DNA of 64,000 nt, from contig CACYKE010000029.1 of assembly GCA_902774925.1 (NCBI GenBank), positions 16,176 to 80,175 of the forward strand, written 5' to 3'. The DNA is from an uncultured Prevotellaceae bacterium (GTDB lineage Bacteria > Bacteroidota > Bacteroidia > Bacteroidales > Bacteroidaceae). The position numbers were made by a program, and so were the translations under genes. Below the pieces are notes generated by a model. It did no database searches. It saw only the letters and a program-made list of their open reading frames with translations, and was not told where the DNA came from. Shown in pieces: positions 42,875 to 60,400 of this stretch; the stretch's first letter is position 1, and each line of letters opens with the position of its first letter.

Positions 42875-43138
42875 CAACAATTTTGGGAATTATTGGCTTT
42901 TTCGCCTCACTTTTTTATATTTATTGCCTAAATGATAGTACATTCAGCTTTTTCTATATCAGGGAAGATTCGTTGTTTATAATGTTTGAATTTTACTATT
43001 TGTAACATCTACGAAAAACGACTTTATTATTTGTAACATTTTGGGGTCGTTTTTTTCAAAATCAGCAATAATTGTTTTAAAATTAGCAAAACTTAACGGT
43101 TTTGCCATTTAATCGTTGTTTTTTCGGATAAAATTTGC
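42875..43138. other. AT-rich control region upstream of the MACPF operon
   Basis: No gene is seen in this divergent spacer. It holds two near-identical 17-bp sites (42992 and 43023) and an inverted repeat AAAAACGAC/GTCGTTTTT around the second site (43014-43022 and 43046-43054) whose right arm runs into a T run. It is very AT-rich compared with flanking genes. Confidence 0.7.
42992..43039 (+). promoter_or_regulatory. Paired 17-bp sites, candidate operator
   Basis: tttactatttgtaacat (42992-43008) and tttattatttgtaacat (43023-43039) differ at one base and begin 31 bp apart, close to three helical turns. They lie about 100 to 150 bp upstream of the -7 box of the MACPF operon, where a dimeric regulator could bind both on one face of the DNA. 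Confidence 0.5.
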
Positions 43139-43146
43139 TATCTTTG
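43139..43146 (+). promoter_or_regulatory. Promoter of the MACPF operon (-7 TATCTTTG)
   Basis: TATCTTTG matches TAnnTTTG exactly, with a TTG at 43116-43118 as a possible -33 element. The leader to the ATG at 43235 would be about 80 nt. I see no terminator in the following 20 kb. Confidence 0.7.
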
Positions 43147-43234: not shown

Positions 43235-44749
43235 ATGAAAAAAATGATGAAACAGTTCTTTGTAGCTGTAGTGGCTTTAGCAGCCTTTACCGCATGTTCT
43301 GACTCCAATTATGAAGGAGAAGGATTTGAAACTCCATCCCTGTTTGCCAATCAGGCTATGAACACCGCAATCCTGACGGATGTAAATGGGCAGCAACTCT
43401 CAAGTGTATCTGGTGACTTTGCCACTTATTACCTGAACATTAAGACCGATGGAATCTGGTATATTGAGACCAACGACTACATGGAGTTCGCTCCTTCCCG
43501 CTATTATGGTCGTGGCAGCATGCGCGTCCCAGTGATGATTGGTAGCAACTGGGCTGAGGCTCGTCAGTTGTCTTACAAGGTAAACTTCCTCGATGAAAAC
43601 GGTGCATTTACTCGTGCTGGTGAGGGTGATGGTTCCCAGACGGTGACCCAGTCGTCAAACACTGACCTTGACGCCTTTAAGAAGATGGTCAATTCAAATA
43701 TCCATGTCGGATATGGTTATAATCCTACAAAGGGTGCTGCCAATAGCGCGCTTTGGACGGGTATTGAAATTTTCAAGATGGATGATCTCATCGGTAATGA
43801 AAAACTTGTCAAGAGCAGTCTGGTACCACAGACCGAGGAGGCGTATATTTATTCCCACAGTGAGGCAGCTCTGGACAAGATCATTGGTGTTAGTGTCAGT
43901 CCAACCGGAAACTTCGGTGCAGTCAAATTTGATACGACGGGTGTGACTGTGAATACAACCAACATCAATCACACTGGCCAGACTGTCATGCAGAAGAGAT
44001 TGACTCGTTCGATTTACAGCCGTGAACTTGAATTTGCCAATGCGACGACTGATGATAAATTGGCCTTTACCGAAGCTAATCTCAGCAATGGTTTCAAACG
44101 TTACAAGGCAGAGTTTATTGCCAAACTCAAGGCTGCCGGCGAAGATACTACCAAAAAGAGAGCTGCAGCTGATGAGCTCTTCAATGTTGTAGGTACACAC
44201 GTTGTTGTAAAATCCCTGTTAGGTCAGGAGCTCAACTATCGAATCGTTGTTGACTCGTCCTACACCAAAAAGAGCACGGAAGTGAAGGTTGCTCTCGACT
44301 TCAAGTGGCAGCAGCAAATCAAGGACACCACGTCAGTTGACTCTGCTACCAAGGCACGCATCAAGGCCATGGAGGAAGAATGGAAGAAAGATTCTACAAA
44401 GCGTAAGAGTTTTGCCCTCAAGACCGGTGTAGAGGTGACCGATACAGAATTCAAGGCAGCTAACTCTACCACTGCAAAAGTCAAGGCTCGTGGCGGTGAT
44501 GTTGAGCTGGTTAGCATTTTGTCCACCGGTGGCTCTCTGATCAATGAAGATTTGAAAAAGTGGTTGTTGAGCACCTATCCTGAGAAAGCAGCTATGATAG
44601 GTGTTGAGACGTTGCCTATTTATGAGCTCTTTAAAGGCAAATCAGATTACGAGGATAAAGCCTATGAATATCTCAAGAAACTAATCGATACCTATCTCAA
44701 GGTTGATGAGAAGATGTATGGAATCATTAAAGATAAAGACGTCCAATAA
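43235..44749 (+). CDS. MACPF-like surface lipoprotein 1, with N-terminal BACON-like domain
   Basis: A 504-aa lipoprotein (lipobox FTAC, Cys21, then SDSNYEGEG, acidic as in surface lipoproteins). Residues of about 30-130 form a beta domain like that in the next protein, ending TRAGEGD, BACON-like. The MACPF domain follows: 'HVGYGYNP' near 155 is the usual opening, and the signature appears as G320-T-H322 in 'NVVGTHVVVKSLLGQEL', with the second glycine of the GG pair replaced by Q. 'VKARGGDVELV' is the conserved GGD segment. It contains a charged insertion ('MEEEWKKDSTKRKS'). First of six tandem MACPF genes; pore formation or surface binding is inferred. Confidence 0.8.
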   Translation: MKKMMKQFFVAVVALAAFTACSDSNYEGEGFETPSLFANQAMNTAILTDVNGQQLSSVSGDFATYYLNIKTDGIWYIETNDYMEFAPSRYYGRGSMRVPVMIGSNWAEARQLSYKVNFLDENGAFTRAGEGDGSQTVTQSSNTDLDAFKKMVNSNIHVGYGYNPTKGAANSALWTGIEIFKMDDLIGNEKLVKSSLVPQTEEAYIYSHSEAALDKIIGVSVSPTGNFGAVKFDTTGVTVNTTNINHTGQTVMQKRLTRSIYSRELEFANATTDDKLAFTEANLSNGFKRYKAEFIAKLKAAGEDTTKKRAAADELFNVVGTHVVVKSLLGQELNYRIVVDSSYTKKSTEVKVALDFKWQQQIKDTTSVDSATKARIKAMEEEWKKDSTKRKSFALKTGVEVTDTEFKAANSTTAKVKARGGDVELVSILSTGGSLINEDLKKWLLSTYPEKAAMIGVETLPIYELFKGKSDYEDKAYEYLKKLIDTYLKVDEKMYGIIKDKDVQ

Positions 44750-44762
44750 GAACCTTTAAAAG

Positions 44763-46169
44763 ATGAACAGGAACTTAACTTACTCGGTATTGGTGCTTGT
44801 TGCCGCGCTCGCGGCAGCATGCTCCAGTAGTGAGGATATGATAGGCAACGAGGGTACTGGCAACGAGAGCAATGCTCCGCTTACCATCCTCGGAACCTCT
44901 GGGCAAGGCGTCATGAATACAGGCGCCTCCTATGGGGAGTACACTGCCTTCATCAACGTGCCGGGCAAGTGGTCTGTAGCAACTTCGAAAGGTTTGGCGA
45001 ATGTCTATCCGTCGGTTGGCGAGGGTCCTACTACAGCTGTTGTTCAGGTGGGTGAGAACTGGGGATCTGTGCGCGAGAATGTTCTGACGCTCACGACCCA
45101 GGGTGCAGCCACACGAGCTGGTGGAGAGAGCCAGTATAATATGTCTATTGTCCAATCGAGCAGTCCCTCGCTGGACTCCATCTCGACGGTATTCTCCGCC
45201 AACAAAGGTGCCGGCTACAGCTATATGCCCGGTGGCGAGTATTGCGACGGAGCTCTGATTCAGCTGTTCAACCTCGTTACGCTCGACAGTATCCAGCGTG
45301 CCACAGGTGTCAGGCTGATTTCCGATGTCATTTTCCCGCAGACTACTCAGGAAGTGGTCACCGCAGACAGTGAGAAGGGTCTCACCAAAAGCCTTACCGT
45401 CAACGCTTCGGTCGGCATGAATTTCGGTTCGATAAAGAGCAAGGGTAAGGAAAGTGGTAGCGGCAGTGGCAGTGTCGGTGTCGATGTGGGAAAAGGTCAT
45501 GAAGAGAAATCTAAGAACAAGTTTGCGCTCAAGCGTCTGACGACCACCCAGTTCACCCGCGAGATTCAGTACATGAATGTCATGGATTTGTTGGAAAAGG
45601 CCACCACACGTGAAGAGAAGATGAAGCTGCTGTCGCCGGGATTCTACTCCGTTCAGGAGACGTTTGCCAAGGACATTGCTGCTGCAAAAGGTAATCAGAC
45701 GAAGCAGTATGAAATCTGCGACAGGTTCTTGGATGAGTTTGGTCCTTGCTTCATCAGCAAGTCGGTGATGGGCTCGGTACTCGACTATCAGATCAGTGTC
45801 GATAGCACGCTGCTCCGCGATACATTAGGTGTCAAGGTGGCTCTCGAGGCGAGCTTCCAGACCAAGGTGAAGGACAGGTCGGTAGGCGGTACGGCGACGT
45901 TCGATATTGGCGTTTCCAAAGAAGCCACAGAACTGATGAGTAAGACAACGGCGACAGTCAAGGTGCGCGGTGGCGATGTGAGCCAGGTGTGTATCCTTGT
46001 CACTGGCGGTCAGTTGTATAACGATCAAATCACGGCATGGCAGAACAGTTGTCGTCCCACCCTTGCCGTGATGGTCGATATGTCGCTGGTCCCCATCTAT
46101 GTGCTTATTGCCGATGCGCCAGCCCGCGAAGTGTTGATGAACTACTTTAAATTAAAATTAGGACAGTGA
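44763..46169 (+). CDS. MACPF-like surface lipoprotein 2, degenerate signature
   Basis: A 468-aa lipoprotein (lipobox LAAAC followed by SSSEDM). The N-terminal BACON-like domain ends TRAGGES (about residue 120), parallel to the previous protein. In the MACPF domain 'GAGYSYMPGGEY' is the opening, and the signature position reads G327-P-C329 ('FGPCFISKSVMGS'), so the T-H pair is lost. The conserved GGD is present ('VKVRGGDVSQV'). A Ser/Gly-rich insert ('KESGSGSGSVGVDVGKG') lies where the first membrane-inserting helix cluster would be, so membrane insertion may differ. It starts 13 bp after gene 1. Confidence 0.75.
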   Translation: MNRNLTYSVLVLVAALAAACSSSEDMIGNEGTGNESNAPLTILGTSGQGVMNTGASYGEYTAFINVPGKWSVATSKGLANVYPSVGEGPTTAVVQVGENWGSVRENVLTLTTQGAATRAGGESQYNMSIVQSSSPSLDSISTVFSANKGAGYSYMPGGEYCDGALIQLFNLVTLDSIQRATGVRLISDVIFPQTTQEVVTADSEKGLTKSLTVNASVGMNFGSIKSKGKESGSGSGSVGVDVGKGHEEKSKNKFALKRLTTTQFTREIQYMNVMDLLEKATTREEKMKLLSPGFYSVQETFAKDIAAAKGNQTKQYEICDRFLDEFGPCFISKSVMGSVLDYQISVDSTLLRDTLGVKVALEASFQTKVKDRSVGGTATFDIGVSKEATELMSKTTATVKVRGGDVSQVCILVTGGQLYNDQITAWQNSCRPTLAVMVDMSLVPIYVLIADAPAREVLMNYFKLKLGQ

Positions 46170-46202
46170 ACGTTGAACATTGAACGTTGAACATTGAACA
46201 TT
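46168..46202 (+). repeat. Five-unit heptamer array (GAACRTT) ending at the gene 3 ATG
   Basis: Five exact 7-bp units, alternating gaacgtt and gaacatt, run from the stop codon of gene 2 (its TGA shares the first unit) to the base before the ATG at 46203. The whole intergenic leader is array. Confidence 0.95.
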
Positions 46203-47324
46203 ATGAAACATATATATTGTTTTCTCCTTCTTGCCTGTGCGCTTGGCATGGCTTCCTGCAGCAGTGACGACACGATGACAGATGAAGAGTTTTATGCTCT
46301 TTTAAGATCCCGTTATGGTATCACTGGGGCACCTAACGCAGATGGAGAGGGGGCGACAGGAACCTATGTGTCCCGTCTGCTGGCTCCTCCGGGCTTTGAG
46401 CGTGGCGTGGGCTATGCCTATGCTACAGGTGCTGAGTATCTGGAGGGAGTGACCTTCAACATCTTCAACCTCAACTATCTGGACTCCATCCAGTATGTCA
46501 AGGGATTGAACTTTGTCAGCGACGATTATACGCCGTATAGTGAGGAACAGATTATCACCGGTGAGACACGCGAAGCGGTGTCCAAGCAGTTGGCTCTGTC
46601 TGCAAGTGTTGGCGTCAACGTTATCGTGGCTGACATCAGCGTGACAGGTAACTTTTCCAAGGGAAGTGTAAAGGAAAGCGAGTCGGTGTTTGCCATGAAA
46701 CGCACCAAGCGCGTGGCTTACTGCCGTGACCTTCAGTATAAGAATGTCATCATGTACTACAAGGAAACGGGCGACAGCATGGTCTTCGCACCAGGTTTCT
46801 ATGCCGACTGGAAACTGCTTGAGGGCAACAACGTCAAGGAGGGAGATGTCAGCAACAAGATGGTTCTGGACTTCGTGAACAAGTGGGGTCGCGGCTTCGT
46901 AGCCCGCTCGTTCATGGGTGGCGTGCTGGAATATACATTGCAGATCGAGAAGTCTTCACTCACCGAGACCATGAGTGCCGGCGTGGCACTCAATGCCAGC
47001 ATTGGACTCCTCGTCGGTGTCGAGGCATCGACCAGCGAACAGACCGAGCAGTTCAGCAAGATATCCCGTGACCGCTACAACCTTGACATCCATGTCCGCG
47101 GTGGCAATGTACAGGCTGTCACCGAGATTTTGTCAGGAGTCAACCCCGCTCCCCAGGGCATCAAGGAGTGGATGGAAAGTGTCAATTTCCCTCCCACTCC
47201 CGAAAGCGACAAATTGAAATTGTGTGCACTCACCGACGTAAAGATAGCATCCATGGCCAACCTCTTCACGGGTAAGGTGCAAGACCGTGTGAATTACATT
47301 TTGCGTACGAATGGGACGAAATAG
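46203..47324 (+). CDS. MACPF-like surface lipoprotein 3, degenerate signature
   Basis: A 373-aa lipoprotein (lipobox MASC followed by SSDDTMTDEE). It has no BACON-like domain: the MACPF opening 'GVGYAYATGAEY' comes at about residue 65. The signature position reads G229-R-G231 ('WGRGFVARSFMGGVLEY'); T-H is lost but the GG is kept. 'HVRGGNVQAV' replaces GGD with GGN. It is the shortest of the six and consists of little more than the MACPF core. The ATG at 46203 directly follows the heptamer array; an upstream TTG inside the array is not needed. Confidence 0.73.
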   Translation: MKHIYCFLLLACALGMASCSSDDTMTDEEFYALLRSRYGITGAPNADGEGATGTYVSRLLAPPGFERGVGYAYATGAEYLEGVTFNIFNLNYLDSIQYVKGLNFVSDDYTPYSEEQIITGETREAVSKQLALSASVGVNVIVADISVTGNFSKGSVKESESVFAMKRTKRVAYCRDLQYKNVIMYYKETGDSMVFAPGFYADWKLLEGNNVKEGDVSNKMVLDFVNKWGRGFVARSFMGGVLEYTLQIEKSSLTETMSAGVALNASIGLLVGVEASTSEQTEQFSKISRDRYNLDIHVRGGNVQAVTEILSGVNPAPQGIKEWMESVNFPPTPESDKLKLCALTDVKIASMANLFTGKVQDRVNYILRTNGTK

Positions 47325-47345
47325 GCAAGAAAACAGGAATTAAGT

Positions 47346-48545
47346 ATGAAGTACACCTTATTATATTTATATATAGCAGCAGGCATGTTGGCGATGGCAT
47401 CGTGCAGCAATGACGAGGATATACCCGTTGTTCCTGAGACATCTCAGGCTGCCGACGACTCCGAAGTCAGTTACGCGCCCATATCGTGGCTTGCCAGGGC
47501 CTATACCCCTGAAGATATTAAGCAAGTTGAAGATGACATCAACGCCATCCGTGGTGCCGGCTACACCTACAGGGATAATGAGTCCTACTGTGTCGGTACC
47601 GATATGGAGGTGTTCAATATGCGTAACCTGCGCGATATGGAAAAGAAGTACAATACCTCCTTTCTTGTCGACGACTACAATCCCGCTACCGAGCAAAAGT
47701 TCTTCTACAGCACCAGCGTCAAGTCCCTGAGAGATTCCCTGGCGCTCGACATCGGTTTAGGTTTTAGCGCAGGTATGTTCTCGGTCGATTTGGATGTAGC
47801 CTTCAACAAGAAGAGCTTCTCTACCCAGAAGAGCTACTATTCGTTGATGCGCCTGAAGCAGAGCTATTTCTCGCGCGACCTCAACTACCTGAACCTGCGT
47901 GAGCTGGTTTCCCATTCCGTAGCCACCTCATCGGTAGCCGACACCTATGTCAGCATTGACGCAGACTCACTGGCCAAGGTTGTACCCCTCTTTAAAGAGG
48001 TCTACGCCCCTGGATTCGCTAGTGTGATGCAGAAGTTTGTCCGGAAGGTCCATTCTGCTTCTTCAGCATATACAGCCAGCGGTTACTGCCGCGAATTTAT
48101 CGAAGAGATTGGTTCTGGTTTCGTGAGACGCTCCGTCTTAGGTTGCTCGCTGGACTATTACAACACGACATCCATGGACTCCGTGTCCAATTCACTCGAC
48201 GTGAAGGTGGCCCTGGAGTTGTCTGTTCAGATTAAATTTGTCAACATCCGTACCGAGATCAGTACCGAATATAAGGATGCTGCCGAGAAGTGTAACCGCA
48301 ATTCAGAGAGCCATATCACCGCCCGTGGTGGTGACGTATCACTCGTGACGGCCTTCACCACTGGTCAGGAAGCAAAGATAGACTCGCTGACCTTGAAGAA
48401 ATGGCAGTCAACGGTGACTCCGAAGGATGCGGCACTGATCGATATCCGCCTGGTGCCTATCTACGAGGTGGTATACGATGCCAAGGCACGTAACATACTG
48501 AGAAGCTACATGGATAAATCATTACGTAACTACGAAGATGACTGA
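47346..48545 (+). CDS. MACPF-like surface lipoprotein 4, degenerate signature
   Basis: A 399-aa lipoprotein (lipobox MASC followed by SNDEDIP). The MACPF opening is 'GAGYTYRDNESY'. The signature position reads G256-S-G258 ('IGSGFVRRSVLGCSLDY'), with both T-H and the GG pair altered. The GGD segment is intact ('ITARGGDVSLVTAF'). Like genes 2 and 3 it ends soon after 'LVPIYEVV', a shared C-terminal strand (compare 'LVPIYVLI' in gene 2). Its stop overlaps or abuts the start of gene 5. Confidence 0.73.
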   Translation: MKYTLLYLYIAAGMLAMASCSNDEDIPVVPETSQAADDSEVSYAPISWLARAYTPEDIKQVEDDINAIRGAGYTYRDNESYCVGTDMEVFNMRNLRDMEKKYNTSFLVDDYNPATEQKFFYSTSVKSLRDSLALDIGLGFSAGMFSVDLDVAFNKKSFSTQKSYYSLMRLKQSYFSRDLNYLNLRELVSHSVATSSVADTYVSIDADSLAKVVPLFKEVYAPGFASVMQKFVRKVHSASSAYTASGYCREFIEEIGSGFVRRSVLGCSLDYYNTTSMDSVSNSLDVKVALELSVQIKFVNIRTEISTEYKDAAEKCNRNSESHITARGGDVSLVTAFTTGQEAKIDSLTLKKWQSTVTPKDAALIDIRLVPIYEVVYDAKARNILRSYMDKSLRNYEDD

Positions 48546-48546
48546 T

Positions 48547-50748
48547 ATGAATAAGGTTAGCATTTGGCTTTTAGCATTTAGCTTTTGGCTTTTACCTCTT
48601 TCCTGTTCCGATGATTTGAAGGACAGTGATGTGAGCTACGACGATCTGACTAGAACCTATTCGGCCGAACAGATAAAACTGCAGCGCTTAGGCTATGCCT
48701 ACAACGCCGCCGGCAGCGTGATGGACGACAAGTACTTCTCCACCTCCCCCATCGTCAACATGGAACGTCTCAGGTCCTACGAGGCAACGTTAGGACTCAT
48801 CATCAATTCCGAGCGACGCCATTATACGTCCATGGACATTTTCAGCGGTAACACCCTGGAGGAGATGGGACATTCTGAGACCAAGTACACCATCGACGAA
48901 ACCGGTGCCATCGCAACCGGTAAGTATTACCGTGAGAACAATGTGTTTTCCAGGACCATCTGGCACAACAGCTATAAAGCCCACATGTTCATCAAGCACA
49001 TCATGGCCACCATGACCATGGATGTCGGCATGCTGCAATGTCTGAATCTGGACGAGCTGGATAACAATAACAGCATCCTCGCGGCAGACTTCCGCCAGGC
49101 AGTCAAACAACTAGTCGCCAAGACCGAGAACGGTATCACCGAAGCTGATGCCGTCACCTTCTCCGAGAAGTTCGGCACACACCTCGTCGTATCTTCCAAT
49201 CTGGGCGGTATGATTGAGCTGACGATGCAAATCGAACGCGACTCCTGCGTAGATAAGAGTTATACGATCAATCAGGTGACAGAAACCCTCTTTGGCAAGG
49301 ATGTTGTAACAACCTCTCCCCCCTCTAAGGTCATCGAGAAACTCGTCAGAAACACCGTTCAGTACGAAGGCGAAATCAAGGTCAAGGGTGGCGACAGTGA
49401 AGACTGTGCCAAGCTTCACAGGACTTTCGACCATAAGAGTGCCGCTGCCAAGAAAATCGGCGATGGCGACTACTATGGCTGGGCCAACAATATCAGTATT
49501 GAGCCCAACAACTACAACGCCTCCTTCGTCAGCGGCCGTTTCCTGCCATACTACCAGCTCTTTGAGAATGCTACCACCCGTAAGGTGATGCGCAAGGTCT
49601 TTGAGACCTACCTGAAGAAAGAAGCCCCCACAAAGGAGATTTACGAGGCTCCCTACGGTACTATACCGGTAGAGGGCAATTATGGTCAGGATGTGAGAGT
49701 CATCTATAATGATTCCAACAAAGCCTGTATCATCTGTAAGGAGTATGTTCCTTCCATTCGCAGCGACTCAACCTGTATCGTGGCTTATCCGCTGATTAAA
49801 GGTAAAGACGGCAATATGCGTCCCTACCTGTATTCCGGACTGTTCGTAGGCGATGAGAACCACCGTCCTGGACGCGTCATCTGGCAAGGCAGTGCATCGA
49901 CATACATCCCCAACGACAGCATCCACGCTGAGAGCGACACCACCTATATTAGAAACCTCTTCGACCAGAAGACGAAAAGGCTGAAGAATCTGTACTTCTA
50001 CTGGGGAGCCGTTCAGCCAATCCCCTGTCCTACCAAGAAAGAGCAGCTTTTGAATTATCAGTCTGTCGTCTTCACCGAACAACCCAGTGTTGTTGCTGAG
50101 CCGATGAATTTTGCGAAGGTCGCCAGCACCTTCTGGTCGGTGAAACCGGTAGCGCTGAAGAATGACAACATGCGCACATACTGGGAGAAAGACTCTGCAT
50201 TTGTGGAGTTCGCCAAGAGAAGATATAAAGATTATAACGGAACACTCTATAAGAACAGCGCAGGCTACTGGTTCGCCCTGATAGACGGAGGCGACCATAT
50301 CAAGCGTACCGACGAGCGTACTGGCGACGAGGACGGCCACCTGAGATGGGCTGATGCCGTGAGCAATTCCGTCAAGGCTATCGGCCTGGAGGACTACCTG
50401 CCCTCGGTCATGGAGTCGCAGAGCATCACCAAGATGCTGGGCAACCGCATGAGCATTTTCTACAGCCACGAATTTGATGGTCGTAACATGCTCGGATTGG
50501 ACTGGCCTAACGGCTACTGGGTACTCTCACATCCCGATCAACCGACGATGGCCACCACCTGGCAGCAGAATGATGCCAGCGGATTCCCTGTTGTCACAAG
50601 CGATGAAGGCGAGGCGCGCATCATGCGTGTCAGTGCTTCAGGAACCGACCTGCTGCTCGACTACCCGGAGTATGTCAGTGCATTCAACTATTCCAGTCAG
50701 GAGTTCTTTAAGTTCTTCCCGATTTATATTACGATCAACAAGTTTTGA
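48547..50748 (+). CDS. MACPF surface lipoprotein 5 with large C-terminal domain
   Basis: A 733-aa lipoprotein (lipobox LPLSC followed by SDDLKD). The MACPF domain has 'RLGYAYNAAGS' as opening and a good signature, G210-T-H212 in 'KFGTHLVVSSNLGGMIEL', with both glycines. 'VKGGDSEDC' is the GGD segment. After about residue 385 comes a new region of some 350 residues ('CIVAYPLIKGKDGNMRPYLYSGLFVGDE', 'GYWFALIDGG') that I do not recognise; it is beta-rich and may bind a target. The signal peptide is encoded by heptamer repeats. An ATG at 48538 is an alternative start. Confidence 0.78.
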   Translation: MNKVSIWLLAFSFWLLPLSCSDDLKDSDVSYDDLTRTYSAEQIKLQRLGYAYNAAGSVMDDKYFSTSPIVNMERLRSYEATLGLIINSERRHYTSMDIFSGNTLEEMGHSETKYTIDETGAIATGKYYRENNVFSRTIWHNSYKAHMFIKHIMATMTMDVGMLQCLNLDELDNNNSILAADFRQAVKQLVAKTENGITEADAVTFSEKFGTHLVVSSNLGGMIELTMQIERDSCVDKSYTINQVTETLFGKDVVTTSPPSKVIEKLVRNTVQYEGEIKVKGGDSEDCAKLHRTFDHKSAAAKKIGDGDYYGWANNISIEPNNYNASFVSGRFLPYYQLFENATTRKVMRKVFETYLKKEAPTKEIYEAPYGTIPVEGNYGQDVRVIYNDSNKACIICKEYVPSIRSDSTCIVAYPLIKGKDGNMRPYLYSGLFVGDENHRPGRVIWQGSASTYIPNDSIHAESDTTYIRNLFDQKTKRLKNLYFYWGAVQPIPCPTKKEQLLNYQSVVFTEQPSVVAEPMNFAKVASTFWSVKPVALKNDNMRTYWEKDSAFVEFAKRRYKDYNGTLYKNSAGYWFALIDGGDHIKRTDERTGDEDGHLRWADAVSNSVKAIGLEDYLPSVMESQSITKMLGNRMSIFYSHEFDGRNMLGLDWPNGYWVLSHPDQPTMATTWQQNDASGFPVVTSDEGEARIMRVSASGTDLLLDYPEYVSAFNYSSQEFFKFFPIYITINKF
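48557..48591 (+). repeat. Heptamer array that encodes the signal peptide of lipoprotein 5
   Basis: Five 7-bp units (ttagcat, ttggctt, ttagcat, ttagctt, ttggctt), then a degenerate ttacctc, encode the hydrophobic core of the signal peptide as a 7-residue repeat (SIWLLAF, SFWLLPL). The 15-mer tagcttttggctttt is shared with both 87-bp repeats near 34.2 and 34.5 kb. Confidence 0.9.
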
Positions 50749-50760
50749 TAGATGACAAAT

Positions 50761-52749
50761 ATGAACACGAACAAAGAAATGAGACGGACGGGCGTAACAA
50801 TAGAAATGTCGGCGAATGTGCTGTTGGCAGCACTGTTCATCCTGCAATCCTCACTCTTCACATCCTGCTCGCGCGAAGACAACCTTCAAACGGTATTGGA
50901 GGAATACGATCCTGCCAACGCCTATGGCGACTACACCGAGGAGTACTGGACGAGAGTACATGCCGCCCAGCGTATGGCATACATCGGTGACCTTTATCGC
51001 AGTTACGGTGTGGGTTACGGTTATAACGGTACTGGAAAGTATAGTAACTACGACGAGGTGCGCGACCGTGTCATCGATATGGAGTATATAAAGAAGTTCG
51101 ATGAGGAACATGGCTCAACGACCCTGGTCGACGACGTCTCTCCCTCGTCCTTCCATCATGTCTACAGTGGTACGGATGCCACGACCATCTGCGAGAAGCT
51201 TACCCGCAAGTCATCGGTGAAGGTTGATTTACTCCTGTTTCAGGCTGAGGCCACGACAACCTTCAACAAGACCGATTTGACGAGCAACGAGTTTGCTTTC
51301 TGCATCATTAACGATGGTCTGACCGTAGCTTCGCGCCACATGGAGCCTTATGACCTCTTATATATTGCCCGCGAGCATCCCGAGGCATTGTCCCAGGGCT
51401 TCCTCCGCTATCAGGAGCTGGCTTCAAAAGCCATCAATGAAAACAATCTTACCGAGGCGCAGCGCATCATTCAGAATATGCTCCAGACCTACGGCACACA
51501 TATCATCTATCATGCTCAGTTGGGCGGCAAGATCAAGCTCAGCACCACGATGAACCGCCATGTCACCGACTCACGCGAAACGGTCGACAAGCAGGCTGGT
51601 GCTACCTTCCTCTATTGCGTCGGAGGCAAAGACGGTACGGAGACACAGGACTGGGTGACCAAAACGCAGACAGACCGCGAGACCCACGTTGAGGCTCTCG
51701 GTGGCAATAGTGCCCTCGCCCTGCAGCTGGCAGGAATGCACGACAGCAGTAACATGACCTTGAAGAGCCAAGTGGTTGACCAGTGGTTCAAGTCGCTCAA
51801 GTTCACCCCTGGCGGCAACAAGGACGACAACAACGTGGAGCTCATCGACATCAAGGTTGCCCCCATCGCCGATCTGATCATCGATCCGCAGGTGGCCAAC
51901 TTATACAACCTGATGGTCGGCAAGTACATCGTCCACGAGACCGATGTCATGCCGCGTGTACGAAAGTCTGTCTATGCCAAGATACCAACCTCTTCTCTCA
52001 AACTCGCCAACCCTTCTACCACCACGAAGGTAGAAATCGACCACGAGATTATCGGCGAGATTGTCGACGAGTATGTCAAGAACGTCGAATACACCGTGTT
52101 CTACCCCACCCTCGGCGGCAAGATGTGTCGTGAGGGTCTGGGCCGTCGCTGCAGTGACGACAGCCTGTTCACCATCACGTGGTCTTATCTCCCCGGAGAG
52201 GAGTTCCAGGCCAAGGCCTACGTCACCCCCTTGGTACGACTCAACTACGACGACTACATCTACTATAATAATGGCGACATCGATATCTCGCCCAAGGAGA
52301 ACCAGAACTACGTCATTGCCGGCGACAACAATATCAGTGAGGCTGCCATCTACATGTGGAACGACACTTGCACGGCCAACATGAAGATTGGTCCCTTCTA
52401 TCTGCACCAGGGCGTGTTGGCCAGCACCAGTGAGAACAAGTCGGCCATGAATACCATCCGCACCCTGCTCAAAGATGTCCCCGTGGGCTATGAGGTCGCT
52501 GCGACGGGAAAGCTCAACAATATTATAAAGTTCATGTACAATTCCGGCCAGGTCTTCGGTCCGTCGCGCATCAAGGAGAATGACGTGCCGCTATTCTTCA
52601 AATACAAGCGGTTTGTCATCAAGGACGACAATACCAACCAACACGGTATTTTCATCCTCAACCCCAAGGAAGACCATTTCACGCTGTTGACGCAGGATCT
52701 TATCGGCCAGGCGTTGCTCTGGCGCAAACCGGATTTTGAACATAAGTAA
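50761..52749 (+). CDS. MACPF surface lipoprotein 6 with intact signature
   Basis: A 662-aa lipoprotein (lipobox FTSC followed by SREDN). The MACPF opening is 'GVGYGYNGTGKY' and the signature is complete: Y244-G-T-H247 with GG six residues on ('YGTHIIYHAQLGGKIKL'). The GG segment reads 'VEALGGNSAL'. A C-terminal region of about 270 residues, different from that of gene 5 ('VEYTVFYPTLGGKMCREG'), is beta-rich and unrecognised. This member is the best candidate for a true pore-former. ATGs at 50752 and 50761 are both possible. Confidence 0.82.
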   Translation: MNTNKEMRRTGVTIEMSANVLLAALFILQSSLFTSCSREDNLQTVLEEYDPANAYGDYTEEYWTRVHAAQRMAYIGDLYRSYGVGYGYNGTGKYSNYDEVRDRVIDMEYIKKFDEEHGSTTLVDDVSPSSFHHVYSGTDATTICEKLTRKSSVKVDLLLFQAEATTTFNKTDLTSNEFAFCIINDGLTVASRHMEPYDLLYIAREHPEALSQGFLRYQELASKAINENNLTEAQRIIQNMLQTYGTHIIYHAQLGGKIKLSTTMNRHVTDSRETVDKQAGATFLYCVGGKDGTETQDWVTKTQTDRETHVEALGGNSALALQLAGMHDSSNMTLKSQVVDQWFKSLKFTPGGNKDDNNVELIDIKVAPIADLIIDPQVANLYNLMVGKYIVHETDVMPRVRKSVYAKIPTSSLKLANPSTTTKVEIDHEIIGEIVDEYVKNVEYTVFYPTLGGKMCREGLGRRCSDDSLFTITWSYLPGEEFQAKAYVTPLVRLNYDDYIYYNNGDIDISPKENQNYVIAGDNNISEAAIYMWNDTCTANMKIGPFYLHQGVLASTSENKSAMNTIRTLLKDVPVGYEVAATGKLNNIIKFMYNSGQVFGPSRIKENDVPLFFKYKRFVIKDDNTNQHGIFILNPKEDHFTLLTQDLIGQALLWRKPDFEHK

Positions 52750-52751
52750 AT

Positions 52752-52779
52752 GAACGTTGAACATTGAACATTGAACGTT
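52752..52779 (+). repeat. Four-unit heptamer array (GAACRTT) ending at the next ATG
   Basis: Four exact 7-bp units (gaacgtt, gaacatt, gaacatt, gaacgtt) fill the gap from 2 bp after the gene 6 stop to the base before the ATG at 52780. The sequence is the same family as at 46168. Confidence 0.95.
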
Positions 52780-54549
52780 ATGAAACAAATACTATTTACT
52801 ATTCTCTTTTCACTATCCACTACCGCTGCCATGGCTCAAGGCTTTGTAACGGAGATTAAAGTTGTGGCAGTGCAGGAAAAAGACAGTCTTGCTCCCGAGG
52901 CTAACGGCTATCATGGCGCAGGTGACTTCGATTTGGATTTCCGCAAAGGACGTGGCGGTGGCTACGTGTTTGCCGTATTTAAGACCGGTACGAACCCGAA
53001 AGAATACATCACCGACGTGAAAGTAACGGCAGATAGGAAGAATGCCTATGGCAAAGAGTTCAATGAGGGGAAAAAGGATTACATACCGGCTCCCTACTAC
53101 CAGGCACAATCACACTTGGACAAGACCTATTATGGCGGACTGAACGGCCGCAACTATAGCATTTATGGAGGCGCATATTCTAAACAGGACCATGTCTATT
53201 ATAGCCATACGGGCAACCAAGATTTCAACCAACGCGTGCTCAAGTGGGCGGAGGTCAGGAGCAGCAAGCCGACGGCGGGTAAGAATCAGACCGTTAGCGG
53301 CGGTCATGCCGGTGGTGGACGCTACTTCCTCTTTACCTGGCATAATCACAAATCGCAGTACAGGAAATTGCCCAACGGAAGCATCCTCGAGCACGAGCAC
53401 TATTGCAGCCTTGACGATTGCAAGCTCACCATACAAGAGCCCCACCACTTCGAGCAGGCCTATGGCCATGATGCATGGATGCAATACACCGAGAAAACCG
53501 GCAAAATCGACCCCGACTCAGTACACTACAAGAAATGTAAGGAGTGTGGAAAAGAGGTTACGGAGAAGCATAAATGGGCAACCTATTCCGCTGACTGGGG
53601 AAATCACAACCAGCGGTGTCTGGTGTGTGACTATGTCATTAAGGCGCAGCACAAGAACTTTGGCAAGGAGAAGTTGCCCGTCGACGATTACTATCACATG
53701 ATTTACTGCGGCGACTGCCAATTCATCAAGAAACTCCCCCATTCGCTGGAGCGTCGCGAGGTGGTGAGACAGGACTGCGAAAACACCCTCGTGAAATATA
53801 CCTGCAGCCAGTGTTACCATGTGGTATACTTTAATGAGCCTGGCACGGACCATAGCTACGACGACAACGGCTTCTGCACCAACAAGAAGTGTCTGCACCC
53901 CTACGAGCGTCCCGCTGTGGAGTATTCCGGTAGCGACAGCACCTATGTCGTCAGGACCTTCGGCAACCTCTACTGGATTGCCGACTATGTCAACAACCGC
54001 CGTCCCAAGACCCATTTCCGTCTTGACAACGACCTGATTGCCGAAGACTTCGTCAAAGTGCCGTGGCAACCTATCGGTGATACTGACAGTACGTCATTCG
54101 AGGGAACCTTCGACGGTGGCGGTCACGTCATCACGATGCTCCAGACAGAAGAACCCGTGGCAGGCTGCGGCTATCGCGGACTCTTCGGTGCTATCGGCAA
54201 GGATGGCGTCGTGAAGAACGTGGGCATGGCTGCATGCAACATGCGCGGCTGGGACTATATCGGCGCCATCGCGGGTGTCAACAGTGGAACCATTGACAGC
54301 TGTCACGTGATATTCTCTGTGATGAGCTCGATAGATATGGGCAAGAACCTCGGCGGTATCTGTGGACTCAACAAGGGCACCATCTCCAAGTGCACCACCG
54401 AAAGCAACGTATGGGTTGGCGGTGTGCGCGACTATGCCGGCGGTATCTGTGGTACCAACGCCAAGGGAACACTGACGGGGAATGTCTTCGAGGCCATCTG
54501 TGGCAGCGGATCGGATGCCACGTTGCCGGAAGCGGCGTCACAGCAGTGA
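52780..54549 (+). CDS. Secreted Cys-pair/GLUG-motif protein 1
   Basis: The 589-aa protein has a signal peptide (MKQILFTILFSLSTTAAMAQ), a beta-rich N-terminal domain with 'DVKVTADRKNAYGKEFNEGKKDYI', and a series of Cys-pair modules between about residues 205 and 375: 'HYCSLDDC', 'KKCKECGKEV', 'RCLVCDYV', 'IYCGDCQF', 'YTCSQCYH', 'FCTNKKC', separated by H-x-F/W pieces. Such repeats may each hold a zinc ion. The C-terminal third has GLUG motifs ('GLFGAIGKDGVVKNV', 'GGICGLNKGTISKC'). No T9SS tail is seen; the protein ends just before a long heptamer array. Function unknown. Confidence 0.72.
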   Translation: MKQILFTILFSLSTTAAMAQGFVTEIKVVAVQEKDSLAPEANGYHGAGDFDLDFRKGRGGGYVFAVFKTGTNPKEYITDVKVTADRKNAYGKEFNEGKKDYIPAPYYQAQSHLDKTYYGGLNGRNYSIYGGAYSKQDHVYYSHTGNQDFNQRVLKWAEVRSSKPTAGKNQTVSGGHAGGGRYFLFTWHNHKSQYRKLPNGSILEHEHYCSLDDCKLTIQEPHHFEQAYGHDAWMQYTEKTGKIDPDSVHYKKCKECGKEVTEKHKWATYSADWGNHNQRCLVCDYVIKAQHKNFGKEKLPVDDYYHMIYCGDCQFIKKLPHSLERREVVRQDCENTLVKYTCSQCYHVVYFNEPGTDHSYDDNGFCTNKKCLHPYERPAVEYSGSDSTYVVRTFGNLYWIADYVNNRRPKTHFRLDNDLIAEDFVKVPWQPIGDTDSTSFEGTFDGGGHVITMLQTEEPVAGCGYRGLFGAIGKDGVVKNVGMAACNMRGWDYIGAIAGVNSGTIDSCHVIFSVMSSIDMGKNLGGICGLNKGTISKCTTESNVWVGGVRDYAGGICGTNAKGTLTGNVFEAICGSGSDATLPEAASQQ

Positions 54550-54619
54550 GAATTGACAATTGATAATTGAGAATTGACAATTGAGAATTGACAATTGATA
54601 ATTGATAATTGATAATTGA
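54550..54619 (+). repeat. Ten-unit heptamer array (NAATTGA)
   Basis: Ten consecutive 7-bp units (gaattga, caattga and taattga in mixed order) begin at the base after the preceding stop codon and end 7 bp before the ATG at 54627. It is the longest perfect heptamer array in the window. Confidence 0.97.
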
Positions 54620-54626
54620 AAGAGAT

Positions 54627-57389
54627 ATGGGCAGGAAGTTTTTTTATATTTTGACCGTTTTATTGTTTTCCCTTTCCATCAGCAGTTTTGGCTACGGGAT
54701 TAAGAAGCCGTTTCTTTTCAACGGCGGCACTACGAGTGATGGGATTGTCATCTCCACGCCTGAGATAGACGGCTTCCAGATAACGGAAAAAGGAGGATTA
54801 ACAATCGTAGAAAAGACAGAGAAAGCCACGATGATATTCTCCGTCATTGTTCCGAACGGAAAAATGGCAACCCTTGAATACAACGTCTTCATCAAGTTAA
54901 TGGTAGAAGAGGATAAGAAGCCAGGTAGAACCCGTATAATTAAGTTCACTGCGAAAAAAGATAAGATAGCCAAAACTAGTCTAGGTAAGAACTTACTTGA
55001 CATTAATTCAGATATCATCACTCTTCCTGCCGGAAAGCACTATATTACTCTTGAAGCCAGTTATTCCGCACTAAATTGTATCATGGCTGGTGGCATCAAC
55101 GCCATGTATATTCATGTCCATGATTTCAGCGAAACGAGGTTATTGCGTGAACCGATATGCGGTCAACGAGGTGAAAAAGAGGCTAAATGCGCAGTCTGTG
55201 GCATTGACAGCACCATCTATCTCCCTCCTAAATACACGGATCACAGCCTGAAGGAAAGCGCTACGACCAATACCAGCTGTCTGTCCAATATGGGCAAATT
55301 GCGTATTTGCGAGCACTGTCCCTATTCTGAAATAGAACGCAAAGACAGCATCAAATCTCATGTTTTTGGCGCGGACGACAAATGCACCGTGTGTGGACTG
55401 CACAAGCCTAAGAGTAATGCAGATCATTCGGTGTACGAAGTTTACGATGCCAGTGAGATGCGTATCCTGGCTGAGATGGTTCAGTTGGGCCAAATCCCCG
55501 GTAACATCGGTATTGACATCAAGGGCGACCTGATATTCAGCAATGAAGTCACCATGCTGCCTTTAGGATCCTTCGAACATCCGTTCCAGGGCGTGATCAA
55601 CGGCAACGGACACCGTATTCGCGGCCTCGTCAACTGCTTCCAGGGCATCGACTGCTTAGGCCTCGTGGGCGTAGCTAAGGGAACGCTCAAGTCGCATGCC
55701 GTCATTGCCAACCTCATCTTCGATGCTGAAAACACCATGAAGGGTACAGCCTGCGTAGGCGGTATCGTGGGTTATGCGGCCTATTGCGACATCATCAACT
55801 GTGCCAGTTTCGGCGTATTGGAAGGCCAGAACTATGTCGGAAGTCTCGTAGGATATGCCGACCAGCACGTCACCTTCCAGAATTGTGCGTCCGTATCTCC
55901 TATCAGGACAGCAGGCCACTGGAACCCCATGGCATGCGGTTTGCCATACGGACACATCCTGAACAGCTATGGTGCTGCCACCAACAGCATGGACGGTGAG
56001 CCGGACGAACTGACGACCACCACATTCCGCCACTGTTTCACCACACATGGCGAGGCCGATGGTCTCAAGTTAGTCAGTCGTGACATGATGTCAACATACA
56101 ATATGCTGGAGCTGCTTAATGAAGAAAGTGACTCGACAACCTTCATGATGTCGCAGAATGACTCCTACCCCATTCCGGTGGTCAACACCGACATTAAGGC
56201 CATGCCAAACCCTGACATTCCCACTGTGTGGAATGCCATACCGCGTCGCGTCCAATTGTCAGAGCTTTCGGAGGACGGCGGCATTGAGCTGAGTGAGAAG
56301 GAACGGGAGATAGAGATTATCGGCGGCTATTCCGACGATGACGCTATTGCCGCCTCAGGCACTTCCTTTGAGGAAGTCATCAAGAAAGATTCCGTTGATT
56401 ATGCGGATTTCGATCGCACATACATTGTGACACGCATTGTCTCTGATGAAGAATTTGATGAAGGATTTGAACTGTTCAAACCCATGGACGGAGGCGAGCT
56501 GTTAAGCTTTGAGTCTTATATGCTTTCTCCCGATTCGACCTTTCTCAGAAAGTCGGAATACCTTCTCGTCTCACCTGAAAAGGTAAAGCCAGTAGTAGAG
56601 ACGATTGATGACTGGTCTGGAATGAATGAACAAATCGACGAATACGCCCTCTCCCTCTGGGACAACTCCCGCGAACTTGTGTCGCGTACCATCATCGAGG
56701 ACGAAAATAACATCACCTATCAGGAAAATATCGATGACATCCTAAAGACTAAATGGAACATCAGTACCACATACGACGAGGAGCGCGATGCCACAATCGT
56801 CGAAGTGTATTTGCATAACTATGTTACGGGCGAAATCAGTCTGGAATATAGTACTACGTACAAGCATGATGACTCAGATGAAGATGAGGAAGAAACTCTT
56901 ATAGAATATGTGGACGAGGCGACCAATACCATCCATGCCCTCTTAATCGATCTAGACTCTATCACTGGTGCGGTCATTTCTCGTGAGCACTTTATTCTCG
57001 ATGCCACCAACGAGTGTCTCCTGCAGATTCTTACGGAAAAAATGATTGATGGTCAGCCATACCTGACAGATGGCATTTACTTCGTCTATGATGACGAAGG
57101 TGCTCTTGCGCAGTCTGTGGCTTACGGACCGGAAGATGAGAAAAAGCCTGGAGAAAATCTGCGTCCTTATCTGTATATTGAGTATCTCGGTGTTAGGGAG
57201 ACCAATCCGTATCCTACGGCTATCAAGGTACCCACAGCGGAAAAGCCGTCATTACAGAAGCATACAGATTATAACGTCTACGACATGCATGGCCGTGTGG
57301 TGCGCAAGGTGACTGACGTGCACAATCCGTTCAGCGGTCTTCCCAGAGGACTCTATATCTATCAGGGCTCTAAGTACATTAAGAGGTGA
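54627..57389 (+). CDS. Secreted GLUG-motif protein 2 with T9SS-like C-terminus
   Basis: The 920-aa protein has a signal peptide (MGRKFFYILTVLLFSLSISS), a beta-rich N-terminal domain, Cys-pair modules at about 175-265 ('KCAVCGID', 'RICEHCPY', 'KCTVCGLH'), a GLUG region from about 325 ('INGNGHRIRGL', 'GGIVGYAAYCDIINC', 'GSLVGYADQHVTFQNC') and an acidic region of unknown fold (about 540-870). The end, 'YNVYDMHGRVVRKV' to 'GLPRGLYIYQGSKYIKR', looks like a T9SS type A C-terminal signal, so the protein should be carried to the cell surface. It is probably co-transcribed with the MACPF genes. Confidence 0.75.
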   Translation: MGRKFFYILTVLLFSLSISSFGYGIKKPFLFNGGTTSDGIVISTPEIDGFQITEKGGLTIVEKTEKATMIFSVIVPNGKMATLEYNVFIKLMVEEDKKPGRTRIIKFTAKKDKIAKTSLGKNLLDINSDIITLPAGKHYITLEASYSALNCIMAGGINAMYIHVHDFSETRLLREPICGQRGEKEAKCAVCGIDSTIYLPPKYTDHSLKESATTNTSCLSNMGKLRICEHCPYSEIERKDSIKSHVFGADDKCTVCGLHKPKSNADHSVYEVYDASEMRILAEMVQLGQIPGNIGIDIKGDLIFSNEVTMLPLGSFEHPFQGVINGNGHRIRGLVNCFQGIDCLGLVGVAKGTLKSHAVIANLIFDAENTMKGTACVGGIVGYAAYCDIINCASFGVLEGQNYVGSLVGYADQHVTFQNCASVSPIRTAGHWNPMACGLPYGHILNSYGAATNSMDGEPDELTTTTFRHCFTTHGEADGLKLVSRDMMSTYNMLELLNEESDSTTFMMSQNDSYPIPVVNTDIKAMPNPDIPTVWNAIPRRVQLSELSEDGGIELSEKEREIEIIGGYSDDDAIAASGTSFEEVIKKDSVDYADFDRTYIVTRIVSDEEFDEGFELFKPMDGGELLSFESYMLSPDSTFLRKSEYLLVSPEKVKPVVETIDDWSGMNEQIDEYALSLWDNSRELVSRTIIEDENNITYQENIDDILKTKWNISTTYDEERDATIVEVYLHNYVTGEISLEYSTTYKHDDSDEDEEETLIEYVDEATNTIHALLIDLDSITGAVISREHFILDATNECLLQILTEKMIDGQPYLTDGIYFVYDDEGALAQSVAYGPEDEKKPGENLRPYLYIEYLGVRETNPYPTAIKVPTAEKPSLQKHTDYNVYDMHGRVVRKVTDVHNPFSGLPRGLYIYQGSKYIKR

Positions 57390-57445
57390 GAGGTAAGAGG
57401 TGTGAAAAAAGATAATTGACAATTGGACATTGAACTTTGAACGTT
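57382..57445 (+). repeat. Two heptamer arrays around the junction to the 1753-aa gene
   Basis: Three agaggtR-type units (57382-57402) cover the end and stop of the preceding gene (its last codons AAG AGG TGA). After nine bases a second, degenerate array (57412-57445) ends with gaacttt and gaacgtt right against the ATG at 57446. Confidence 0.75.
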
Positions 57446-60400
57446 ATGAAAACAGGTGGATTATTAGCAGCACTGATGTTGTTTGTCTCTGTCAGCGTAG
57501 GTGCACAAGATTATAACATATTGAAGTCTACTCACTACACCATGGAGCATGGAGGAGTGAGTATTAGTCCCCAGACTTGTGCTGCCGGCGGTACGGCGAA
57601 GGTCGATGTCAACCCTGAAAGTGGCTATGGCTTGTCGAGAGGCCTGTTCTATGCCAAACGAAACGCCAACGGCGGACTAGATGTGACCAGAACGGCCAGA
57701 AACACGAGTTCATATCCGGATGATCGTGGCAACAAGACACAGAACTTCGAGTTCACTATGCCCGATGGCGACGTCGAGGTGTGGGCATTCTTTGCCCCCT
57801 TGGATTCGCTGATTATCCATCAGTATAAATATGCTTATGACAAGTTAAAGCCGCTGTATGGTTTAGCCTACGAAGAAGACAGCATTGCTGTGGTAAAGAA
57901 TTTGCCTAACATGCAAATCGTCTTGATTCCCGTATTGGGCGACGATCATAAAGAAACTCACGAACTGGTGGATGTCGAAGTCACCAATATCAATCCGAGC
58001 CTTGTCATAAAAAGTGCGGATACCGTGAAGATCACGTTGCCAAACACGAACAAGACCGTACATGTCACTCCCATCTTCGGCAAGAAGAATTATGAAGTTG
58101 TTTTGCCCAATAAGTTGGACCACATTCAGGCCACAGAGGTCGATCTTACGCTGGTGACAGATAAGGGCTACATCCCTGCCAATGTAACCATCACGGGCTG
58201 CAAGTCATCGTGGCTTGTGAGCACGGAGCGTCTTGAAGGCGGCGGATGGAAGACCGTTTATCGCTTCAAGATGAATATGGAGAAAGTCACGGTCAAGTAT
58301 AGTGTTGAGGAAGTACATTCTTTCAGTGTCAATGACACCAAGAAATCCAATCGCGTCAAGGCCTTCGTTCCCGAGATGATTCCCGGCTACCCCGGTGTGG
58401 CACGCGAGGGGCAAGAAGTTCCGGTGGTGTTCCTGATGCCTGATACCTTCAGTGTCAGTTACACTGCAACGGGCGCGAGCAATACGGTGGTGTACCACAA
58501 TGTGCTGAAGAACAGCTATGCTGACGAGAGCATGAATAGCTGGACAGATACCTCCAAAAACGACGGCGAGCAACTTCCCGTCAAGACCTTTACCGATTCC
58601 GAAGGCAATAAATTTTGGCGCACTAGCGGAGTCAACAGCATGGAGCAGACTGTGGACCTCAGCAAATACACCTTCCCCGCCAGTGCCTGGGAAAATAACA
58701 AATTGAAGATTGGAGCCATTGCCAGCATCATGCCCTACGGTTCCCGTCTGGCAAAGGTCAGTATCGTATCCGTGGGTAATGGCAAGTCTGAGACTCAGGC
58801 TGTTGCCGACCTTCCCGGAAAGGTGAAGGACTGGGTTACCGAGTGTAAGCTCCTCACCATCGATAGCACAGCCACCAAGGTGAAGATGTTGGTAGAAGGC
58901 CAGGCCGAAGACATTAATAAGCGCAGCTATGAAGGTCCGGCGTTTGACAACCTCTGTCTGCTGCTTCCCACGGATGGCAAGTCCATCAAGAACGAACACG
59001 TGCTTGTCTTCAAGATGGGCAAAACCGACGCCACCATCGAATATACGCCGTCGGGCGAGGAAAGCACAATGCGCATCGTCAATAAAGAGCATGCCACCCT
59101 GACGCTGATCAATACAGCCACTGATGAACAGGGTACCACTATCAAGGCGATAAAAGGTGATGTCATCATCATCAAAGCAAAGGCTGATGATGGATATTGC
59201 ATCAAAGAGGTGTCAATCGATGTTCCTGCCGAGGGGAACACTGGAAGTGCTCCTCGTCGTGGATATGTAGACTTGCCTGATGATGAACCTGAAATCCTGG
59301 AGCCCTGCTCTATTAACATGGCTACCAATGAGACCGTCTTCCGCTACGTCAGAAAAGACGACGACAACCTCGATGTTACTCCGACTGTTGAAAAACAGAA
59401 AGTGATGCTCACAAGCTATATCGGCGGCGAGATCGAGGTCGATAAAGAGTTTGTGAAGACGGGTGAAACCGTCGTTGTCACGGTCAAGCCCAAAGCCGGT
59501 TGCCAGTTAAAGCAAATCAGGACCATCCCTGCCAACGTCGTGCAGTTCCAGGAGGTGAAGGTGGATAAGAACACCGGTGCAGGCACCTATTCCTTTGTCA
59601 TGCCAACCCCTTACATCACGTTGAAAGGCGAGTTTATCGTACCCATTACTACTGCGCAGCAGTTAGATAGTCTCTCACAGCAGTGTGGAACGTTCCGCCT
59701 CGATACCAATCTTAACCTGGGTAACGAATGGAACAAGAAAGAAATTGAACTCATGGGTGATTTCGACGGTAACGGCCACCGTATCACCTACGGAGGCAAT
59801 TGCAGCCTCTTTCACACCATCGAGACAAAAGGCTCCGTTCGCCATCTCTATGTCACCGCAAATTTGAAGGGAGTAAAAATTGGAGCTGAAAGTGAAGACA
59901 ATATAGGTGGCATCTGCAGGTTTAACAAGGGTGTCATCGAAGACTGCGAGGTAAGCGGCTCCGTGAAAAACGAGCGAACGGCTTCCTTCGCCTGCGGTAT
60001 TGCCGGACACAACAGCTCCACTGATGAGGGAGGCACCATCGCTTACTGCCACGTCCTCTGCGACGGCTTAGATGCCCCGATGGTCTATGGCGTGGCCCGT
60101 CAGGGAAAACATGCCGTCATCAGGGACAACGTCTTCAGTGGCATGTTTGTCGCTGGCGACGGACAAGCCTATATGATATGCAACGACCAGGACAGCGTCA
60201 CCATTGAGCGCAATTACTATGTTCCCAATCCGGGCAATTCCAGAGGCGAGCTCTGTCAGGGCGTGACAGCGAAGACGCCTGCCGGTATGACCGACGTAAT
60301 CTATCAGGCCCCCAAGGACTACTACGTCTATATTGCCAGCCTCAAGAGCAAGTACGTGGGCGGCCATGCCATCACGTTCGCCGAGACTGCCAACGTCACA

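Follow-up and report, generated by a model that had tools for sequence, protein, structure and literature searches.

A conserved six-gene MACPF lipoprotein cluster of Prevotellaceae that may encode a complement-like hetero-oligomeric pore

Six MACPF lipoprotein genes head an operon-like run

MACPF toxins of Bacteroidales are known as single-gene weapons. Here we describe six consecutive lipoprotein genes, g1-g6, which occupy positions 43235-52749 of the plus strand in a 64,000-nt stretch of DNA from an uncultured Prevotellaceae bacterium (G000:C29:16176-80175; the whole stretch is called the window hereafter). Their open reading frames (ORFs) comprise 504, 468, 376, 399, 736 and 665 codons for amino acids, g3 and g5 being reduced to 373 and 733 residues if translation begins at an internal methionine, and they are separated by 13, 24 and 21 bp, then by an 8-bp overlap (g4/g5) and finally by 3 bp. 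An earlier note, made from the letters of the window, had taken them for six tandem MACPF lipoprotein genes, and this is borne out: all six products score above the gathering threshold of PF01823 (33.6-40.4 bits; threshold 21.5). Members 1-4, for which that note had considered a lack of the MACPF fold, are MACPF proteins as well, g1 by Pfam and by fold comparison of a weak model, g2-g4 by Pfam only. A six-frame search of the 94%-complete genome found no further MACPF gene outside the cluster; its five matches all lay within it, g4 being missed there and found by the PF01823 search of the ORFs.

A lipobox-like cysteine followed by acidic residues, likewise claimed before, is seen by eye in all six window genes, and a lipobox regular expression, which missed g5 of the window and chose the wrong cysteine in g3, was positive in 17-23 of the 22-23 orthologues per gene. 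Alignment of g1-g6 yields 14 invariant columns, among them the lipobox cysteine, a GYxY motif, a pair of glycines preceding the second hairpin, and the GG in (R/K)GG(D/N). The shared opening had been described as GxGYxY; it is present, but its correct form is GYxY (VGYGY in g1, LGYAY in g5). Similarly, the supposedly C-terminal (R/K)GG(D/N) motif is carried by five of the six proteins, g6 having LGGN, and lies near the C-terminus in g1-g4, but is followed by about 350-450 residues in g5 and g6.

The six proteins are far from uniform, with identities to g1 of 33% (g2), 21% (g3), 25% (g4), 21% (g5) and 18% (g6). An extra N-terminal region is found in g1 and g2, g3 and g4 consist of the MACPF part alone, and g5 and g6 carry C-terminal regions without a Pfam family. 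Profile comparison connects g5 with g6 at 95% probability and g1 with g6 at 32%. Sequence comparison with the PDB led from the g6 profile to 2qp2 (E 6.5e-5) and from g5, as its best relative, to C9 (E 0.14), while g2 gave no match at E<=1. The fold matches of the g1 model include Astrotactin-2; the g5 model, which is too poor, gave no Foldseek match at E<=0.001, its best hits being C9 chains at E 0.06 and above. The BACON-like assignment of the N-terminal domain of g1 comes from fold comparison, since Pfam returned no BACON match among 21 g1 orthologues.

Table 1. Features of the operon-like run, in window coordinates; S, M and L are the predicted subunit types described in the text.
Feature	Position	Strand	Description	Basis
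Putative promoter	43116..43146	+	TTG, 20 bp, TATCTTTG; ends 88 bp before g1	TATCTTTG at 43139-43146
g1 (S-type)	43235..44749	+	Lipoprotein, BACON-like N-terminal domain and MACPF, without C-terminal domain; variable, exchanged member	
g2 (S-type)	44763..46169	+	Lipoprotein, N-terminal region alignable to that of g1, and MACPF	PF01823 35.1 bits; alignment; query of the 22-locus scan
g3 (S-type)	46194..47324	+	MACPF lipoprotein without extra domain at either end	PF01823 33.6 bits; alignment
g4 (S-type)	47346..48545	+	MACPF lipoprotein without extra domain at either end; predicted amphipathic hairpins strongest among the six	PF01823 36.4 bits; hairpin scores
g5 (L-type)	48538..50748	+	MACPF lipoprotein, C-terminal region of ~375 aa without Pfam family; first hairpin weak	PF01823 40.4 bits; L clade 100/99; hairpin scores
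g6 (M-type)	50752..52749	+	MACPF lipoprotein, C-terminal region of ~285 aa without Pfam family	PF01823 37.6 bits; with M clade 90/78
g7	52771..54549	+	Exported non-lipoprotein, CxxC repeats (by eye), no known family	Without lipobox in 22/22
g8	54609..57389	+	Large exported protein, sub-threshold matches to GLUG and to a type IX secretion system (T9SS) tail	GLUG 20.0 bits (cut-off 20.5); Por_Secre_tail 16.6 bits (cut-off 23)
g9	57437..62707	+	Exported protein, 1756 aa	In 2 of 3 relatives read that far
g10	62704..64000	+	Very large exported protein, first 432 codons only	Counterparts in two relatives

The unit does not close at position 52749. The MACPF genes head an operon-like run in which at least four further large exported proteins (g7-g10) continue to the contig end; g7 follows g6 after 21 bp, g8 follows g7 after 59 bp, g9 follows g8 after 47 bp, and g10, whose start overlaps g9 by 4 bp, is cut by the contig end, which coincides with that of the window. 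The g10 counterparts in two relatives measure 2760 and 2686 aa and are 54 and 60% identical across the part available, and the relative G007 carries other small genes after g8 in place of g9 and g10. By eye only, the tails of g9 and g10 resemble the T9SS-type sorting tail of g8; NCBIfam tail models matched neither. Upstream of g1 lies a putative promoter of the Bacteroidetes type. Its TAnnTTTG element (-7) is found no more than 170 bp ahead of g1 in 15 of the 20 loci surveyed, window included; L031, L036 and L037 were outside this survey.

The order of the genes is conserved

Scanning a genome collection with a g2 profile returned 22 loci, a lower bound given that the scan required exact peptides, all from metagenome-assembled genomes (MAGs) titled Prevotellaceae, Prevotella or Bacteroidales. 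Gene order and strand are identical in all of them as far as the contigs extend. Each of g1-g6 is a single ORF in 20 of the 22, L030 ending in g3 and L031 having g1 split into two ORFs near the contig start; g7 stands right after g6 in all 21 named loci that reach it, and the same 21 reach part of g8. Within the genus, 20 of 398 genomes (own included) matched the g2 profile: in 19 of them a full-length g2 is accompanied by adjacent g1, g3 and g4 matches, that to g1 being partial in G220, and the remaining one has just a g4-like match near a contig start. The two samples overlap (G007 is L027, G040 is L029), so that their counts are not additive.

The six genes are thus a real, conserved multi-gene MACPF system, as the earlier note had supposed, and the genome survey that it had called for shows by the strict order that their adjacency is more than chance. 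Coincidental neighbourhood or an oddity of one strain is ruled out by the same order in 22 loci. So is recent tandem duplication, since orthologues of g1-g7 remain 46-100% identical while the window paralogues are 18-33% identical to g1. A plasmid- or phage-borne operon was also considered; the plasmid and phage collections contained no g2 match. The genes upstream of the operon in the window are present in L018, L019 and L021 and were not seen in the other 19 loci, 7 of which hold less than 6 kb upstream; because the upstream genes differ among loci, the operon occupies more than one genomic neighbourhood. At L021:6136-8264, the upstream gene is inverted relative to the window and followed by a 342-aa ORF that by eye is like REP-type transposases, a rearrangement in the immediate vicinity of the operon.

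Exchange of the 5' end among closely related operons

Median protein identities over 210 locus pairs are 56% for g1, 75% for g2, 78% for g3, 73% for g4, 64% for g5, 72% for g6 and 62% for g7. In several close pairs, g1 lags behind the other genes: for g1-g7 in this order, the window and L021 share 57, 83, 93, 99, 99, 98 and 99%, the window and L038 50, 78, 89, 87, 86, 91 and 88%, L020 and L023 57, 78, 83, 84, 80, 88 and 83%, and L033 and L034 91, 100, 99, 99, 100, 98 and 99%. Not every close pair has a divergent g1: it is 99% identical between the window and L019, and 91%, like the remaining genes, in the pairs L025-L026 and L024-L028. On the DNA level, L021 matches the window at 92% in the promoter bin, at 47-74% in g1 and at 98-100% over 46550-48499, and the first ~75 residues of g3 also vary among close relatives. 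Distances of g1 correlate with those of g2 at 0.56 and with those of g3-g7 at 0.26-0.37; g3-g6 among themselves reach 0.76-0.92. Judged by these comparisons, near-identical operons swap g1, g2 and the beginning of g3 by recombination of the 5' end, as would be expected if this part were under diversifying selection.

Each member has a MACPF domain and a lipobox of its own, and g1 is exchanged separately from the others, so one might think of six independent BSAP-like toxins that have been gathered in one operon as an arsenal, each forming a homo-oligomer with its own target. Such an arsenal should gain, lose and shuffle members, however, whereas order and content are fixed in 22 loci; moreover, the distances of g3-g6 covary, g3 and g4 lack any extra domain for target recognition, and solitary MACPF genes belong to a different sequence class (see below). 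We therefore regard independent toxins as distinctly unlikely. The proposal of a set of specificities, made in the earlier note, fits g1 but not the co-inherited g3-g6.

The six genes differ in sequence class from solitary BSAP-like genes and probably belong with three-gene operons

In the sets searched, MACPF genes outside this lineage stand alone more often than together, in agreement with the initial expectation. PF01823 matches occurred in 11 of 60 genus, 15 of 247 order and 40 of 298 family genomes (own included each time). In the order set, adjacent genes were confined to the cluster itself and a pair in G495; among the family genomes, at least four adjacent matches were found in the own genome only, three in G657, G756, G777 and G817, and two in several. 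These numbers are subject to PF01823 missing some members and to a 90% completeness filter in the order and family sets, which excludes most six-gene carriers (5 of 175 genus genomes at that quality matched the g2 profile).

In 36 further loci, comprising the remaining family matches and one order-independent repeat, class B, the class of solitary genes, was the best of nine class profiles in 34 and two gave no match; in L064 an L-like gene lies alongside, and L071 also gave a weak, distant match to S. Because the B profile was built from five rows and produced some weak matches (E 1e-13), it might work as a catch-all. DUF5648 (PF18885), the commonest C-terminal domain of BSAPs according to section 9 of PMC12853789, is present in two of six B proteins scanned (L070, L073), and of two B proteins compared with the PDB, L093 matches 3KK7 and L085 has no match. 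On account of these two domain hits and the 3KK7 match, we take class B to cover BSAPs. Six B-type rows form a separate, starred clade apart from g1-g6 in a quick tree of 99 rows.

The C-terminal regions of g5 and g6 match none of PF18885, PF20779 and PF20785 at E<=1, and g1-g4 have no C-terminal domain. In BSAP-1, it is the protein's own C-terminal domain that sets receptor choice, as stated in PMC12853789. The same paper lists 20 of 214 representatives without any C-terminal domain and 8 with neither end domain, and calls their receptor recognition undetermined; g1 and g2 share the former layout, g3 and g4 the latter. Since some accepted BSAPs have no C-terminal domain, its lack does not by itself exclude BSAP membership. 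BSAPs are single MACPF toxins, whereas here six members are co-encoded, two of them without extra domain, in a separate sequence class. On this basis, the six genes look like a different MACPF lineage from the solitary BSAP-like toxins.

Using a g1-g6 profile, several apparent MACPF pairs turned out to be three-gene operons. Three classes, S, M and L, occur together in 12 fetched loci, including L009 and L049, where the short member was detected by class profile. Their order is S-M-L in L008, L009, L010, L012, L043, L046 and L049 and S-L-M in L044, L045, L047, L048 and L050, with a ~1.2-kb gap ahead of M in L047 and L048; in L011, L and M are present and S was not seen. These loci were chosen for clustered or strong matches and are uninformative on frequency. 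They hold homologous subunit classes in one operon, like the window, but with a single S where the window has four. L040-L042 represent another three-gene MACPF lineage (about 440, 710-800 and 420 aa); taken as a group, its members have hairpin faces compatible with lipid.

A careful tree of 69 of the 99 rows, which left out all rows of L010, L013, L014, L016, L017, L047 and L051-L055 and the six-gene rows of L022 and L036, places g1-g4 in a single clade (99/94) that is sister to S (96/82), g5 inside the L clade (100/99) and g6 with M (90/78). The quick tree, with seven six-gene loci including the window and without L006 and L007 (same contigs as L027 and L029), agrees on g1-g4 and g5. The phylogeny shows g1-g4 grouping, at the level of sequence, as four diverged copies of a domain-poor subunit. 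Across eight operons, S, M and L have concordant distance matrices (Mantel r 0.94-0.97, p <= 0.0006), as expected from joint inheritance.

Predicted membrane hairpins form a gradient among the classes

In the two segments that turn into membrane hairpins in MACPF pores, best-face hydrophobicity averages 2.9-4.1 for the S classes, 0.9-1.9 for L, 1.9-2.7 for M and 2.2-2.3 for 39 B proteins. A measure of alternation gives the same picture for hairpin 1 of L and hairpin 2 of M. The second segment is longest in g1 (72-79 residues, versus 48-55 in g2-g6). These scores support a gradient rather than a yes/no split between classes, and membrane insertion might be carried out by S alone.

MACPF rings could also serve a non-toxic surface assembly with the giant exported products of g7-g10, as adhesin scaffold, transport port or inhibitor trap. 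The constant linkage to the large exported g7 and g8 and the low hairpin scores of g5 would agree with this, as would the existence of MACPF proteins such as Astrotactin-2, which is not known to be lytic. Retention of lipid-compatible hairpin faces in the four S subunits speaks against it, and exchange of g1 alleles is the expectation under antagonism, so that we hold a non-toxic role to be unlikely.

A possible complement-like pore

We infer that the six proteins assemble with one another and kill: they would form a surface-displayed, complement-like hetero-oligomeric pore with division of labour, acting against other, probably related, bacteria, and we give this reading about even chances. 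In such a pore, g5 (and g6) would use their C-terminal regions to recognise the target surface and would seed assembly, like CDCL-L or C5b-8; the S subunits would then be recruited and their hairpins line the barrel, like CDCL-S or C9. The fastest-changing and swapped subunit, g1, could tune target recognition or escape from inhibitors, and the producer may be tethered to its target by the giant exported products of g8-g10.

The closest parallel is provided by CDCL operons, which exist in two- and three-gene versions and whose two-component toxin assembles like complement and kills Bacteroides, as described in PMC11169675. There, as here, a short and a long component are encoded in adjacent lipoprotein genes; the short one has no binding domain and the long one has one, putatively so in g5 and g6, and labour is divided in a complement-like way, as it would be here. 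CDCLs, however, were collected with PF01289, which matches none of g1-g6 at E<=1, and have two or three genes instead of six. Compared with the complement membrane attack complex (C6, C7, C8, C9), the present proteins are bacterial lipoproteins with other flanking domains, and their ordered assembly is putative. A search of the open-access literature (PMC) found no description of such multi-gene MACPF operons.

As to the target, 13 of the 22 titled relatives are red-deer MAGs or RUGs (rumen uncultured genomes), and the device might be directed against rumen eukaryotes, i.e. ciliates or host cells, instead of bacteria. We consider this highly unlikely, given that bacteria are the targets of those MACPF and CDCL toxins of Bacteroidales that have been characterised (PMC4999547, PMC11169675).

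Several observations weigh against a pore with divided labour. Alternation in hairpin 1 is higher in M (z 1.1-1.2) than in g3 (z 0.9 and 0.6), and class B, which should include real toxins, does not exceed M in hairpin score (p 0.62 and 0.13, values that ignore kinship). A low score is no proof of non-insertion, because low scores are also obtained for BSAP-type proteins, and toxicity is proven for some BSAPs. Both AlphaFold models are poor (pLDDT 49 and 52). The quick tree does not place g6 with M, and approximately unbiased (AU) tests do not reject a single clade of all six (p 0.10), g5 joined with g6 (0.09) or g6 placed in L (0.21). These outcomes leave the class assignment of g5 and g6 less than firm. 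The agreement of the S, M and L trees shows joint transmission and is no evidence of binding. Finally, no immunity gene was recognised in the run, no search having been aimed at such genes.

The complement-like reading can be taken further, to a bacterial membrane attack complex in the strict sense: an obligate, ordered assembly of six MACPF subunits, in which the receptor-type L and M subunits nucleate four non-equivalent barrel subunits and one exchangeable subunit sets the target. It would be part of a broader lineage of S/M/L operons in Bacteroidales, separate from BSAPs, in which some operons have their own sensor-protease, a periplasmic-binding domain fused to a C13 peptidase, as possible trigger. 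This extended version is tentative, and we rather doubt it than believe it. If true, the conserved six-protein set would be for bacteria what the attack complex is for complement and would surpass the two- and three-gene CDCLs in kinds of subunit, and MACPF lipoproteins without C-terminal domain, like those listed in PMC12853789, would gain a possible role as subunits. The system offers a way to test why a pore requires several unlike subunits and which component of such a weapon changes fastest (g1 in the present case).

Companion genes in related operons

Of 23 related loci searched, 16 have a protein matching the C13 peptidase of L043 and 11 a PnrA/Bmp-like lipoprotein (one weak match); for the 12 S/M/L loci the respective numbers are 9 and 6 (one lipoprotein match again weak). 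Several loci are cut by contig or stretch ends. Neither protein was found in the window or in the two six-gene loci included. Pfam confirmed C13 in all five proteins scanned (L011, L012, L041, L043, L046). Downstream of two- or three-gene MACPF operons, the peptidase is fused to a type-1 periplasmic-binding/receptor domain (L012:1759-3882, L046:12839-15112, L041:1433-3637) and thus looks like a surface sensor-protease; in L043:1548-3710 and L011:496-2703, the receptor domain was not called. According to PMC11169675, killing by BfCDCL requires a C11 protease, which makes a built-in protease a plausible trigger in the operons that carry one. With the L043 peptidase as query, no activating protease was found in the window; elsewhere, its genome has one C13 and two C11 matches.

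The PnrA/Bmp-like lipoprotein lies between the MACPF genes and the peptidase (L043:3697-4755, L050:13147-14265). Another lipoprotein without Pfam family, encoded at L043:4778-5884, has matches, mostly of 370-500 aa, in L009, L011, L012, L044, L045, L049 and L050, with several copies in L049 and L050, and is a candidate immunity or adaptor protein of multi-MACPF operons.

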